Shown here: positions 16,625 through 22,265 of the stretch, piece by piece
Numbering within the stretch: position 1 is the stretch's first letter
Layout of the letters: each line of letters opens with the position of its first letter
Assembly: GCF_000143885.2 (NCBI RefSeq)
Contig: NC_018581.1
Location: 4,898,001-4,962,000 of the forward strand
Reading direction: 5' to 3'
DNA length: 64,000 nt
From: Gordonia sp. KTR9
GTDB lineage: Bacteria; Actinomycetota; Actinomycetes; Mycobacteriales; Mycobacteriaceae
Notes under the pieces: model-generated
Told to the model about the DNA's origin: nothing
Seen by the model: only the letters and a program-made list of their open reading frames with translations
The model's database searches: none
Program-made: the position numbers and the translations under genes

Positions 16625-17705
16625 TCGATACGAAAACTCGTCCTGCCGCGTCGCCAACTAGATGTATGAGGCCATGACGTTCGCTACGCCAGCCGGGGCT
16701 CGGGAGGCCGGCGGTCTACCGGCGGCAGCGCCGTGGGGGCGGTGGTAGTTGTAGTGCACGTTCCAGACTTGAAGTGCCCGTTCTCGTTGTTCTTCAGAGT
16801 TCCAGACGCGGGCGTAGAGGAACTCTTCGGCGAGATTCGGTTATGGCGCTCGACTTTACCGTTGTGGCGCGGGGTGTATGGGCGGGTCCTTTTGTGTTGT
16901 TCGCCGAGCAGTGCGTGAGAGAAGGTCACGGCGCGATAGCAGGCTCCGTTGTCGGTGACGATCTGCTCGATTCTGTTGATAGCGTGCGCTAATAACCGTG
17001 CGTGGGCCCGGTGTAGAAATCCGATTGCGGTGACCGCCTTTTCGTCCGGCAGTGCTTCGGTGTAGGCGAGGCGAGTGTGTCCGTCCACGGCGGAGTGCAG
17101 GTAGACGTATCCGCGCCTGCCGGTCTTGGTCTTTGTTCGTGATGCGGCCTTGGCTTGTTCGGAGTCGCGGCCGTGGACGCGCCAACCTTCGCCGTCTGGG
17201 ATGCGCCCAACCTTCTTCACGTCCAGGTGCACCATGTGACCGGGTCGTTTCGCGACGATGGCCTGCGGTTTACGATTGCCTTCGACGTTGGGGTCGATGA
17301 ATCTTCGGCGGTGCAGGCCGAGTCGGGCGAGTGTCCGAGTGACAGTACGACGGCTGATCGCTATGCCGTCCTGATTGAGCTCGAAGGCGATTCGGGAAGC
17401 TGACCACTTGTGTTCACGTCGCCACTGCTCAACCTGGGCAACCACTTCCGGCGGCGTAGCGCGCGGTTGCCGACACGGTGTCGAGGCACGATCTTGCAGA
17501 CCGGTTTCACCGTAACGGCGGTAACGGTTGACCCACTTCGACACACACGCCCCGGAGATGCCCATTTCCGCGGCGACGTGCGCGATCGGACGGTTTTGAC
17601 ACCGTTTCACAAGACGGCGACGCACCTTAATCGACAGGGGCGCGTTGGTATGGGTCATTGTGTCGCACTTGGTGCCGAGGGCCGGGGCGTGGTGTCATGG
17701 GCGCT
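16625..17705 (-). mobile_element. IS481-family insertion sequence (ends approximate)
   Basis: A transposase of the IS481 type occupies 16658-17658. The boundaries are estimated. Sequence just outside the coding region on both sides shows weak inverted similarity (GTCCTGCCGCGTCGCCAACTA near 16640 against GCCCCGGCCCTCGGCACCAAG read inward from near 17695), but neither precise termini nor a target duplication could be fixed by eye. The element lies between the nitroreductase and a TPR-like gene and its right end overlaps the latter's stop codon. Confidence 0.55.
16658..17658 (-). pseudogene. IS481-family transposase with a single-base frameshift
   Basis: The frame from ATG 17658 encodes an N-terminal HTH (VAAEMGISGACVSKWVNRY), a second HTH and the start of the DDE core (MVHLDVKKVG, IVTDNGACY). 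After RHNGKVERHNRI the expected family ending is lost; the frame runs on to a stop at 16684 as an unrelated Thr/Pro-rich tail. Reading one base over from near 16835 restores a typical ending (AEEFLYAR, RALQVWNVHYNYHRPH, GVANVMASY) with stop at 16658. One missing C near 16833-16838 explains this, so the transposase lacks its correct C-terminal catalytic Glu region and is probably inactive unless rescued by frameshifting or unless this is a sequencing error. Confidence 0.8.
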
Positions 17706-18164
17706 TATGGCCTGGCGCACCTCGTTGATGGCTGTGCGGATCATGTCGCCGTAGCCATCTCGCGCCAGGGCGGAAGTGTGCTGTCCAGCGCGATCGATGT
17801 AATCGGTAGCTGCCTCGAACGAGCCCAGTCGGCGGAGGTTGTCGGCAATGTTCAGCAGCAAGCTCGGGTAGAAGCCCGCCACTTGGAGGCTTGCATGGTG
17901 CTGCTGAGCCCGGTGATTGGTAATTGTGGCGGCGGCATCAAAAGCCCGGACATCCCACATGAGTGCCACGGCAGGGCTGTCGTATAAGTCGGCGAGGTAA
18001 TGCGCGAGAGTGCAGCGATGGAACGGGTCACCGTCCACCCCGATTCGGTTCCAAATATCGAGGAGGTCTCGTCGAGCCGACTCGGTGTCGCCTTCGCGGC
18101 CGATAGTCACGGCTTTGCCGATGGATTCCATTGTCGGGTCAGGCATAGCTGCGTTCGTGGTCAT
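17655..18164 (-). CDS. TPR-like helical protein next to the MerR-clamp regulator
   Basis: 169 residues, almost wholly helical in appearance, with paired helices such as ESARRDLLDIWNRIG, HRCTLAHYLADLYD and GSFEAATDYIDRAG that resemble tetratricopeptide repeats. It is downstream of the MerR-sliding-clamp gene by 68 bp on the same strand; similar gene pairs occur in actinobacteria as far as I recall. The final 15 or so residues (HDTTPRPSAPSATQ) look like IS-derived sequence, and the stop codon overlaps the transposase start, so the natural C terminus may have been replaced by the IS481 insertion. Biochemical role unknown. Confidence 0.65.
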   Translation of the reverse strand: MTTNAAMPDPTMESIGKAVTIGREGDTESARRDLLDIWNRIGVDGDPFHRCTLAHYLADLYDSPAVALMWDVRAFDAAATITNHRAQQHHASLQVAGFYPSLLLNIADNLRRLGSFEAATDYIDRAGQHTSALARDGYGDMIRTAINEVRQAISAHDTTPRPSAPSATQ

Positions 18165-18232: not shown

Positions 18233-19300
18233 TCAGCCGGTGATCGAGGAAGGGTGACGGCAGGGCATCACGAGTACGGTGAGATCGCCGGCGTCAGCCG
18301 ATCGGACTGTGGCCGGCTGGTCGGGCCCGCGGAGGTCGAGCATTACGTCGTTGCCGACGGTATGACCCAACGCTGGATACAGCGTTGTGAGCTCGAACCA
18401 GAGTGTGAGGTCGGGACCTGTCGCCGAGCCGTTGAGGTCAATTCTGGCGTCGGGCAGCAGGAGAACCGGTTTGCTGTCGATCACCTCGAGGCCGACCGTG
18501 TCTGGCGCAGTTTGTTCCAGTGCGGTGAGAATCTGCTGATTGTCGATGGTGACACGGTGCGTCACCAATGCAAGGGAACGAATCAGCATTTTGTAGTCAG
18601 GGAACGTCTCGGTTAAGAGCCGGCAGTGCGCCACGGTGCCGTCGACCATGCGAAAGGTCAGGGTTCGTTCACCCGCCTCGGCAATCACACGGGGACTTCG
18701 CCGCAGTCGCGAGATCGCGCCCTGCAGATCTTCACCAGCGAGCGTCCCCGCCCATGAACCGGCAAACGGTTTGTCCGGGAACAGTGTTCGTGTCGCCAGG
18801 CGGTACCGGTCGGTCGCTGTCAGCGACACCGAATCAAGGTCGGTTTCCATTCGCACACCACCGAGAACTGGGATGTGTCGATCGTGAACGGTGGTAGCGA
18901 GTACCTGATCGACAGCGGCCGCGAGCACCGGCCCCGAAAGCTCGCACACAGTGATGTGGGCGCCCTCTCCGAGGGATGCCTTCAGCGCTGCAGCAACCTG
19001 GTACATACCGACGGTGTCGGCGGCGACCCTGGCAATCTGATCATCAATCAGACGTGCCTTTTCGTCGTCGCCCGCCGTGAAGAACGTACCGATAGCAGAC
19101 AGCGGCATGCCAACCTCGCGTAGTCGCCGCAGCTGCAGGGCGGGTTCGAGCTGGGCATCGCTGTACAACCGGTAGCCAGTCAGTGGGTCGACGAGCTCAG
19201 GCCGAAGCAGCCCTGCGTCGTCGTAAAACCGTAACGCGCTTGTCGTCAATTCAGCGAGCTTTGCGAACTCGCCAATCGACATCAATCTCGGGTCACTCAC
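18233..19300 (-). CDS. MerR-family regulator fused to DNA sliding-clamp (DnaN-like) domains
   Basis: 355 residues. The N terminus (about 7-75) is a MerR winged helix-turn-helix: SIGEFAKLAELTTSALRFYD, then a GYRLYSDAQL wing and LRRLREVGMPL. Residues about 110-350 match bacterial beta-clamp domains II and III: PVLGGVRMETDLDSVSLTATDRYRLATRTL is split here by a helix, and the C-terminal end VLVMPCRHP mimics the clamp ending LLMPVR. Clamp domain I is absent, its place taken by the DNA-binding domain. A dimer would carry four clamp domains rather than the six of a ring. Start: GTG 19300 lies exactly one start distance (6 bases) from the -10 box of a MerR-type promoter, indicating a leaderless, self-regulated gene; a TTG at 19321 is an unlikely alternative. 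Signal sensed and targets are unknown. Confidence 0.8.
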   Translation of the reverse strand: MSDPRLMSIGEFAKLAELTTSALRFYDDAGLLRPELVDPLTGYRLYSDAQLEPALQLRRLREVGMPLSAIGTFFTAGDDEKARLIDDQIARVAADTVGMYQVAAALKASLGEGAHITVCELSGPVLAAAVDQVLATTVHDRHIPVLGGVRMETDLDSVSLTATDRYRLATRTLFPDKPFAGSWAGTLAGEDLQGAISRLRRSPRVIAEAGERTLTFRMVDGTVAHCRLLTETFPDYKMLIRSLALVTHRVTIDNQQILTALEQTAPDTVGLEVIDSKPVLLLPDARIDLNGSATGPDLTLWFELTTLYPALGHTVGNDVMLDLRGPDQPATVRSADAGDLTVLVMPCRHPSSITG

Positions 19301-19306
19301 AGGAAC

Positions 19307-19337
19307 ATCATCAGGCCTCAACCAACTTGAAGGTCAA
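19307..19337 (-). promoter_or_regulatory. MerR-type 19-bp-spacer promoter of the MerR-clamp gene
   Basis: On the minus strand, TTGACC (19337-19332) and GATGAT (19312-19307) are 19 bp apart. The spacer region carries the imperfect dyad CCTTCAA-GTTGG-TTGAGGC. The -10 box ends 6 bases before GTG 19300. This is the classic geometry for autoregulation by a MerR protein. CTTCAAGTTGG is the exact complement of the motif in the ABC-exporter promoter at 1273-1283. Confidence 0.6.
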
Positions 19338-19476: not shown

Positions 19477-20148
19477 TCAGCTCTGGCCGAGCATCCCCTT
19501 CATCTGGTCGATCTCCGCCTGCTGGGTTCGCTTGACCTCTTGGGCAAGGGCTTTCGTCGCAGGGTTGACGCCGTCGGCGAGTACCGCATCGGCCATCGCG
19601 ATGGCGCCTTCGTGGTGCCGGATCATGCCCTCGAGCCACAGCCGGTCGAACTCCCCACCGCGTGCGTCGCGTAGGGCGGCCATCTGGTCCGGGGTGAGCA
19701 TGCCGGGCATCGCGGAGTGACCGTCATGGCCCATGTCCCTGCTCCCCATGTCACCATGCCCCATGTCCCCGTGGTCGTCGCCTGGCTCGCCCCAGCTCTC
19801 GAGCCGGTCCTCCATCTGCTCGATCTCGGCGTCCTGGGCCTTCTCGATCGTCGACGCGAGGGCGATCAGTTCCGCGTTGTCCGTTCGGCCCTCGACGAGT
19901 TCAGCCATCATGACGGCCTGGCGATGATGTCCGATCATCGTCGAGGTGAATTCGACGTCGGCCTCGTTGTGAGCGGTCGACGCAGGCGCGGAGGTCGTCG
20001 CCGACCCGGAGGTCGAGGTGGCATCGGCCGTGGTGCCACCCGGCGACTCGTCCGGCGAGCACCCGGCGACCGCGATGAGTGCCGCCGCGGTCAGCCCGAT
20101 TCCCGCCGCTGGCCGGATACGGCGTCGAGATGTGTTGTACGTGTGCAT
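19477..20148 (-). CDS. DUF305 lipoprotein, Met/His-rich
   Basis: 223 residues with a lipobox (IAVAGC, lipidated Cys30) and an S/T/G-rich linker to about residue 58. Two DUF305 halves follow, each with a four-helix-bundle, ferritin-like pattern: MIGHHRQAVMMAELV near 71-86 and MIRHHEGAIAMADAVL near 172-188, both with paired His. Between them is a Met/His/Asp/Gly-rich segment with repeated GDMGH and HSAMPGM motifs (about 124-150), typical of copper-handling proteins. It is anchored outside the membrane. The downstream-reading partner DUF6153 gene lies 102 bp upstream. A copper- or metal-related role is inferred from residue content and pairing; no CsoR-type operator was seen. Confidence 0.85.
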   Translation of the reverse strand: MHTYNTSRRRIRPAAGIGLTAAALIAVAGCSPDESPGGTTADATSTSGSATTSAPASTAHNEADVEFTSTMIGHHRQAVMMAELVEGRTDNAELIALASTIEKAQDAEIEQMEDRLESWGEPGDDHGDMGHGDMGSRDMGHDGHSAMPGMLTPDQMAALRDARGGEFDRLWLEGMIRHHEGAIAMADAVLADGVNPATKALAQEVKRTQQAEIDQMKGMLGQS

Positions 20149-20744: not shown

Positions 20745-22013
20745 TCACGACGCCGGCGTCGACGCCCTGGCGCCGTCGGGGACCGAATCGTCTCCCGACT
20801 CCCCCGCTGCCTCTTCGGCAGCCCGGCGTCGTTGTCGTGGGATCAGAATCTTGCGGTCGATGACCAGGTAGGTTGCCACCACCGCGGCGGCCAGCGCCCA
20901 CCCGAGCACGATGTCGAAGATGTAGTGCTCGGCGGTGTACACCAGGGCGAACGCCATCGCGAAGGCGTAGCCCATGAACAGTGTTTTGCCCAGAGCCTTC
21001 ACGCGTGGCCACATGAAGAGGGCCAGGAGCATCGTCAGACCGGCGTGCAACGACGGGATCGCGGCCACCAGATTGGACTTGCCCTGACCGACCTCGACGA
21101 GGTTCGAGGCGGCGTGGATGTTGAGGAAGCCCCAGCCCCGCGCGGAGATGCGTTCGACGTAGGGATTGGCGTCCGGGTACGCGTTGTCCAGCGGCCCCAG
21201 CAGCCCGCCGGGTTCTTTCGCCTCGGGCGAGTACATGCAGATCGGGTCGCGCGGGAAGTCCTGGACCTCGGCCGCGGTGCATCGCGCGGCGGCCCACGGC
21301 GGAGCACCCGGGACGAGGGTGTATCCGACGAGGGCGAGGAAGGTCGTCGCCACGAAGCACGCCGCGTAACGTCGCCATGCGGCCCGGTCCTTCAGCCACA
21401 GCACCGCCGCGACCGCGTACGGAATGATGAAGTAGGACATGTAGACAACGCTGACGATGACCTCCCACCAGGGCGGGGTCGCCTGCTTGAGGTTCTCCTG
21501 CAGCCACGCCGTGGGATTGACACCACCGGTCAGCCAGGCGTCGAAATCGATCGCCAGATGCCAGTGGGTGGGCATGTCGACGATGCGCGCGACGTCGCGC
21601 GTCCAGTCGTAGAGGATCAGGATCAGCGCGAACGGCGCCCAGTCGATGAGGATCGTGATGAACTTGCGCCGGCCGATACAGGCGGCGGCGAGTCCCAGAC
21701 ACATCAGGACGATCAGTCGCGTGCGGTCGAATGCGAGGCCATAGAGCGCGACGTGCACCGCCATGAGCACGACCCAGGCGCCGATCGCGATGCGCCGGAC
21801 CATAGTCAGATCGCGGCGGCTCTCCGGGTCGGCCTCCATCTCGGCGGCCGCGGCCAAGTCGTCGAGGACCGGATTCACACCCGCGGGACCGGTGTCCTCG
21901 CGATCAGCGTCCTCACGTTCGGTGTCCAGCGAGGAGTCGGTCTCGGCGGTCGTCTCGGGATTCTGGCGCTCGTCGCGCTTTGAAGGTCTTCTGCCCGGCT
22001 GCGGGACGCCCAT
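20745..22013 (-). CDS. PAP2-superfamily polytopic membrane protein
   Basis: About 422 residues from ATG 22013 (TTG 22040 or GTG 22031 would add up to nine). An acidic, disordered N terminus (to about 70) is followed by at least eight membrane helices. PAP2-like motifs are AAIPSLHAGLTM (near residue 315) and YTAEHYIFDIVLGW (near 360), the SLHAG and H-x3-D parts of the phosphatase triad; the acyl/inositol-phosphotransferase (AUR1-like) branch has the same pattern. It may dephosphorylate or transfer a lipid phosphate head group on the outer face of the membrane. The tail is Ala/Glu-rich. Lies just downstream-adjacent to the DUF6153 gene (17 bp) in the same direction, so cotranscription is possible. 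Confidence 0.75.
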   Translation of the reverse strand: MGVPQPGRRPSKRDERQNPETTAETDSSLDTEREDADREDTGPAGVNPVLDDLAAAAEMEADPESRRDLTMVRRIAIGAWVVLMAVHVALYGLAFDRTRLIVLMCLGLAAACIGRRKFITILIDWAPFALILILYDWTRDVARIVDMPTHWHLAIDFDAWLTGGVNPTAWLQENLKQATPPWWEVIVSVVYMSYFIIPYAVAAVLWLKDRAAWRRYAACFVATTFLALVGYTLVPGAPPWAAARCTAAEVQDFPRDPICMYSPEAKEPGGLLGPLDNAYPDANPYVERISARGWGFLNIHAASNLVEVGQGKSNLVAAIPSLHAGLTMLLALFMWPRVKALGKTLFMGYAFAMAFALVYTAEHYIFDIVLGWALAAAVVATYLVIDRKILIPRQRRRAAEEAAGESGDDSVPDGARASTPAS

Positions 22014-22265
22014 CGTCTCGTCGACACTCACCCGACACAACCCCGCCTGTCACACCCCGCAGGGCAACCACCCACTTAACCTGCCGTCAGTGTAATGGCC
22101 ATCTCTTGTTGGCGAGCGACCCCGACGGTCAGGCATGTCGGATTCGAGTGGTTTCGGCGCGGCGCCGCCCAGCCCACGCGCGCCGACAGCGGTTTTCGCG
22201 GACGCCTCGCCCGACGGGGTGTTGTGGATCACACTGGAGTCGTCGATCCCCTGAAGGAGGCCTCG

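Follow-up and report, generated by a model that had tools for sequence, protein, structure and literature searches.

Among described systems, the closest to the gene reported here are MerR regulators of the TipA class, in which, as set out in the accessible portion of PMC7762955, one self-regulated gene joins a MerR DNA-binding part to a ligand-sensing domain and serves as drug sensor, activator, and neutralizer. A second body of work concerns the replication clamp DnaN. The available text of PMC11139829 places the glutamine of the binding motif in subsite II of the protein-binding pocket in most ligands and the Leu-Phe end of the motif in subsite I, and it gives I272, L273, and acidic dimer-face residues of DnaN. 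DnaN-directed peptides of actinomycetes exist, and GriR and MypR are second DnaN copies tied to self-resistance, according to the accessible sections of PMC10817943.

Here we describe a gene in which a MerR DNA-binding domain is followed by a module that corresponds to DnaN domains II and III. It lies in the window, by which we mean the whole 64-kb stretch of DNA that was analyzed. As in the TipA class, a MerR part and a putative ligand-sensing domain share one gene, and the predicted promoter anatomy suggests control of the gene's own promoter; unlike in TipA, the effector is a clamp copy, the TipAS effector domain was absent among the 5 families returned by a Pfam scan of the fusion up to E 10, and there is no conserved internal start. 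By analogy, TipA would be the nearest working model. The best solved-structure matches of the MerR part are the multidrug-efflux transporter 1 regulators 7ckq and 3iao, which we take to be BmrR; the effector domain of BmrR has another fold, and the fusion carries DnaN domains II-III instead. With DnaN, the fusion has in common the fold, domains II and III, and the larger part of pocket subsite I, but it has neither domain I nor the ring segment, and its lumen and subsite II are altered. GriR and MypR resemble it as actinomycete DnaN copies kept for a use other than standard replication but differ, as far as the accessible text of PMC10817943 goes, in being DnaN genes within antibiotic clusters and not regulators. 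A literature search of titles and abstract openings, with subscription papers mostly outside its reach, returned no description of a MerR-clamp protein. Our reading, to which as a whole we assign a probability of roughly 0.6, is that the gene encodes a one-component MerR regulator with an effector derived from DnaN domains II and III, in which docking of a ligand would lead to self-activation of the operon.

Domain composition of the fusion

18233-19300, minus strand: MerR-clamp fusion gene, 355 aa from GTG at 19300 (open reading frame, Pfam, NCBIfam, start distance)
19082-19282, minus strand: MerR winged helix-turn-helix, residues 7-73 (MerR_1, E 1.2e-13; helices in the model)
18971-19069, minus strand: long helix, residues 78-110, at the position of the MerR dimerization helix (monomer model)
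18263-18955, minus strand: clamp domains II and III with pocket subsite I, residues 116-346 (Pfam, model, pocket columns)

Read from its first TTG, the open reading frame spans 18233-19321 on the minus strand (362 aa). The GTG at 19300, where the first-pass annotation had also begun the gene, is the likely start because the promoter-to-start distance is conserved. MerR_1 matches residues 14-80 of the 362-aa version at 51.4 bits against a cut-off of 21.6, and DNA_pol3_beta_2 matches at residues 129-242 (E 6.4e-8); both pass their Pfam cut-offs, and domain III has no separate Pfam match. In phmmer searches, residues 130-344 and 131-348 align with the solved mycobacterial clamps 5ah2 and 6d47 (E ~1e-5), and the structure model superposes on clamps across residues 98-350. 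Identity of the clamp part in the rows listed is 25 to 28% to mycobacterial clamps and 14 to 16% to that of E. coli. The first-pass annotation had read the frame as a MerR helix-turn-helix joined to clamp domains II and III, with the DNA-binding domain replacing clamp domain I; the Pfam and phmmer matches and the model alignment, including the structural match of the C-terminal region to DnaN domains II-III, bear this out. Full DnaN membership was rejected, as the NCBIfam dnan model reached 46.3 bits (E 2.8e-12), far short of its cut-off of 137.65, and the three domains of DnaN are represented by II and III only.

In the MerR family, the helix at the position of residues 78-110 serves in dimerization. 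It comprises 33 residues in the monomer model, with a mean pLDDT of 72, and 64 over residues 91-110. Since pTM is 0.68 and this linker helix is of middling confidence, the model leaves the arrangement of the fusion's parts loose.

Of 8000 candidates scored, 445 proteins match the fusion at E 1e-3, the weaker of which may share one part only. Named sources among the 120 matches listed are actinobacteria, e.g., Mycobacterium, Gordonia, Rhodococcus, Nocardioides, Amycolatopsis, Streptomyces, and Brevibacterium, and database names of the homologs include MerR family regulator and DNA polymerase III subunit beta family protein. When 30 of the listed homologs were aligned, 55 columns were invariant; the MerR part contributed 21 of them, and the other 34 lie at or beyond residue 103. 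Separate MerR and clamp HMMs each matched 37/37 loci, which had been picked by whole-protein similarity. By homolog count and invariant columns, the pairing of the two domains is more than chance.

Conservation of the clamp-derived pocket

We aligned DnaN with 66 fusions (30 from set A1 and 36 from the loci, partly redundant), of which 46 remained after a 75% filter. The first alignment included nine DnaN rows, one of them (L123) a wrong open reading frame, and the second used 30 different DnaN sequences, reduced by filtering to 24, with one partial. Eighteen pocket residues were defined after the accessible part of the review PMC11139829. Mean agreement with DnaN was 0.578 at these columns versus 0.237 over domain II-III columns, a value reached by 0/20,000 random draws. 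Among DnaN-conserved positions only, 15 pocket columns agreed at 0.69 and 72 others at 0.33 (p 0.00095). This conservation may be partly due to folding.

Six pocket residues, L155, R174 (G in E. coli), R176, P242, M362, and P363, are identical in 46/46 nonredundant fusions, and at the H175 position (Y), M362, and P363 the fusions are in the same state as actinobacterial DnaN. Within subsite I, T172 is kept in 45/46 and Y175 and L177 in 43/46 each, while the V360 position holds L, as in DnaN, in 35/46; departures are V247, mostly M (28/46), and R152 and R246, which vary. Subsite II has N320 replaced by E or D (36/46), Y323 by T (38/46), and V344 by D (34/46), and R365 remains R in only 16/46. 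Judging from these columns, subsite I is mostly retained and subsite II rebuilt, and we infer that the pocket may suit a ligand unlike the standard QLxLF motif.

One possible ligand is a drug. The clamp copy might act as a decoy sensor for griselimycin- or mycoplanecin-type compounds, binding the drug, inducing itself, and mopping the drug up much as TipA does. Such drugs bind the corresponding pocket of DnaN in the accessible text of PMC10817943, and the drug-bound clamps 5ah2, 8cix, and 8ciy are among the structural matches, alongside other clamps. The same text has griselimycin-type drugs filling both subsites and mycoplanecin A using R365, so that the altered subsite II and the loss of R365 in most fusions speak against simple griselimycin binding. 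The TipA parallel is also incomplete in that a conserved internal start is absent: a linker start with a Shine-Dalgarno-like stretch occurs in 13/37 loci, scattered, and none was found in the window's gene. We consider a griselimycin decoy unlikely.

Free clamp-binding motifs offer another candidate, in line with the sensing of clamp-binding proteins or of replication stress that the first-pass annotation had entertained. Were the fusion a sensor of replication stress, motifs of polymerases or repair proteins would dock and trigger the operon. Such motifs insert their Leu-Phe end into subsite I, and the conservation of most of this subsite suits the idea; one plasmid copy of the fusion also lies ~3.6 kb downstream of a dnaE gene. 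But subsite II, where the glutamine would sit, has been remodeled and now carries acidic residues. We hold replication-stress sensing to be improbable, and operator and neighborhood (below) bear on it as well.

Ring segment and lumen

The lumen and dimer residue lists used for comparison with DnaN are a working assumption, for which PMC11139829 bears out I272, L273, and the acidic residues of the dimer face; in the hand-made dimer list, column S274 lacks a residue in DnaN as well. The segment of domain III that closes the ring (E. coli I272/L273) is a gap in 66/66 fusions and in 46/46 nonredundant ones. At lumen positions, K198 is D or E in 32/46, R205 is S, A, or P in 39/46, and R282 stays R in just 7/46, whereas R245 is retained in 38/46. 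Conservation of the five lumen positions among fusions about equals that of the average column, and the median net charge of the clamp part is -7.5 versus -11 in DnaN, i.e., not more negative.

The first-pass annotation had suggested that a MerR dimer would unite four clamp domains and possibly form an open clamp. The retained R245 would suit such a clamp around DNA, but with the ring segment missing throughout and three lumen residues mostly lost, the suggestion fails, and we give it almost no credence. The module bears the pocket but is, as these sequences read, unlikely to close a ring.

A conserved promoter with a 19-base spacer

19301-19337, minus strand: predicted MerR-type promoter/operator (from sequence; binding is presumed)
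19337-19332, minus strand: -35 box TTGACC, part of the predicted fusion promoter
19312-19307, minus strand: -10-like block GATGAT, 6 bases before the GTG start

Between the -35 box and the -10-like block lies a 19-base spacer that carries an imperfect inverted repeat. We compared the context of 37 loci, 36 from carrier genomes (see Distribution) and the window's own. The block is common to all 37, with the consensus TTGACCTTCGAGTTGGTCGAAGCCCCATGATG; TTGACC recurs across them with one or two changes in a few, and in the -10-like block the second and last bases are most constant, although some blocks are poor, e.g., that of L057. The promoter matrix aligns 36 loci without gaps, each with a 19-base spacer, the length that the first-pass annotation had anticipated for a MerR target; L061, outside the matrix, also has the -35 box. 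Counted from the first base of the -35 box, the distance to an in-frame start codon is 37 bases in 34/37 loci and 38 bases in 3/37. With the start codon about 6 to 7 bases past the -10 block, the message would be leaderless. A generic sigma-70 scan found nothing at this promoter, as expected because it permits only 16- to 18-base spacers.

The operator at 19301-19337 is the sole site above 18 bits in the window. Of 15 class-level loci outside the matrix, 12 pass 20 bits, one reaches 18.7, and two (L112 and L113) fall below 15, while 3/3 plasmid loci examined outside the matrix exceed 30 bits. Control loci totaling 163 kb (30 DnaN and 7 other MerR loci) gave no operator site above 20 bits. We also searched 20 partner-type loci without an adjoining fusion match (18 in genomes where a search at E 1e-30 gave no fusion and 2 second copies in fusion genomes); only L093 had a site above 12 bits, and it was found to hold a divergent fusion. 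There the partner comes first and the fusion second, and the site precedes the partner; therefore, the site goes with the operon. Taken together, the promoter anatomy suggests that the fusion regulates its own promoter.

At up to 2 mismatches, the window's own genome has 2 sites and 0 for the reversed pattern. The second copy (45.1 bits; L156:5001-5032, C2:2964446), outside the window, is flanked by a glutamate dehydrogenase-like gene and by a convergent gene resembling AlkD by eye; it points antisense into the latter and serves no obvious gene. Its position, driving no obvious gene, counts against the replication-stress sensor. A wider regulon was rejected: a looser pattern with 2 mismatches in 40 genomes gave scattered matches, also in genomes without the fusion (10 in G038, versus 3 for the reversed control). 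Among the matches listed, 12 had zero mismatches, 11 at the fusion's own promoter and one elsewhere (G152:C1:3584473).

The TPR-like partner and the neighborhood

17655-18164, minus strand: partner gene, 169-aa all-helical TPR-like protein, 68 bases downstream of the fusion on the same strand
19477-20148, minus strand: DUF305/CopM-like gene, upstream of the fusion on the same strand
20745-22040, minus strand: PAP2-family gene, upstream of the fusion on the same strand

For the partner protein, no Pfam family scores above its cut-off and NCBIfam gives no match, but 841 of 1011 candidates are relatives, some named tetratricopeptide repeat protein. Its model is all helix (pLDDT 88.8), and Foldseek matches are weak, the best (E 0.0026) a designed protein and the next mostly TPR proteins, none below 0.001. 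The partner lies directly downstream of the fusion in 26/37 loci. Among the neighbor clusters listed, it is the only other gene common to most loci, which again argues against a replication-stress sensor; the DUF305/CopM-like and PAP2-family genes are not prominent there. An IS481-family transposase gene (16684-17658, minus strand) has a start codon that overlaps the partner's stop codon, a position that suggests an insertion exactly at the end of the operon.

In a genome search for the domain pair and its neighbors, as proposed in the first-pass annotation, the partner is adjacent to the fusion in 40/57 fusion genomes, and a partner relative occurs in 41/57 of them versus 55/144 others (Fisher p 1.9e-5, not corrected for relatedness). 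Partner-type genes thus also occur without the fusion. In three such loci (L084, L087, and L091), a protein-kinase-like open reading frame (by eye) lies upstream and other shared frames downstream, hinting that the partner is part of a wider adaptor family. Conversely, a search at E 1e-8 finds no partner in 16/57 fusion genomes, and 11/37 loci retain promoter and pocket without it. In these 11 loci, filtered open reading frame lists showed no other shared operon gene, and a partner HMM found nothing in 3-kb flanks. In L053 and L055, the partner matches as two reading-frame pieces. Loci that keep the fusion promoter without the partner fit a one-gene system of the kind the drug decoy supposes.

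TPR folds commonly bind peptides or proteins. The partner itself could accordingly be the ligand of the clamp domain, restraining or activating the regulator in an intra-operon feedback. Adjacency in 40/41 fusion genomes that have a partner-type gene, and the co-occurrence above, would favor this; yet the partner is missing from the 16 genomes, the 11 loci examined keep promoter and pocket regardless, and inspection by eye showed no clamp-binding motif in its sequence. We judge the partner quite unlikely as the ligand.

Distribution

The fusion was found in 57/201 sampled genomes of the window's family (E 1e-30). In a class sample, 96/296 genomes match at E 1e-20, mostly as MerR-only or DnaN-only rows; 15 rows cover nearly the whole profile, and 12 more, divergent, span both parts. 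In a phylum sample, 5/198 genomes match at E 1e-34, every one within the class. A scan of genome contigs returned two MerR-only matches. The fusion also occurs on four Streptomycetaceae plasmid records, with promoter and partner matches in 3/3 examined. The window's protein is 70% identical to an Actinomadura protein, compared with 39 to 41% to three of four other carriers in its own genus and 63% to the fourth; together with the patchy presence, this suggests transfer or old paralogs. Divergent MerR-clamp subfamilies occur in other actinobacteria (L110-L115 and L093), with an operator match that is weaker or absent, and in several of them domain III falls outside the profile match.

Prophage origin was rejected, since none of 14 matching phage records reaches 80% query coverage; each of the 12 listed aligns with one part, either clamp or MerR. 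An anti-phage annotation was likewise set aside: the sole PADLOC match, mad1, covers residues 11-60 in the MerR part, and the partner protein has none.

Proposed mechanism and implications

MerR proteins untwist promoters with over-long spacers. In our preferred account of a self-activating regulator, the protein would dimerize through the MerR helix and sit on the 19-base-spacer operator, and a ligand with a hydrophobic anchor would dock in the clamp-derived pocket. The dimer would then untwist the promoter, as MerR proteins do, and switch on its own operon, yielding more regulator and partner from a presumably leaderless message in positive feedback. The clamp-derived domain is the probable sensor, and the TPR-like partner probably acts as adaptor or effector; in genomes that lack the partner, the conserved unit is reduced to the regulator. 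A broader version, possible if doubtful, is that the clamp copy, shorn of its ring and DNA roles, baits molecules directed at the clamp, whether natural-product antibiotics or proteins of phages or rivals, and then induces itself together with the TPR effector.

Thanks to the conserved promoter, a single reporter strain would be enough to test candidate ligands, and a reporter that induces itself in response to clamp-binding compounds could directly aid the search for DnaN-directed antibiotics. An effector domain that arose from a replication clamp turned sensor would have an unusual origin, and the decoy reading, if true, would possibly represent a new principle.
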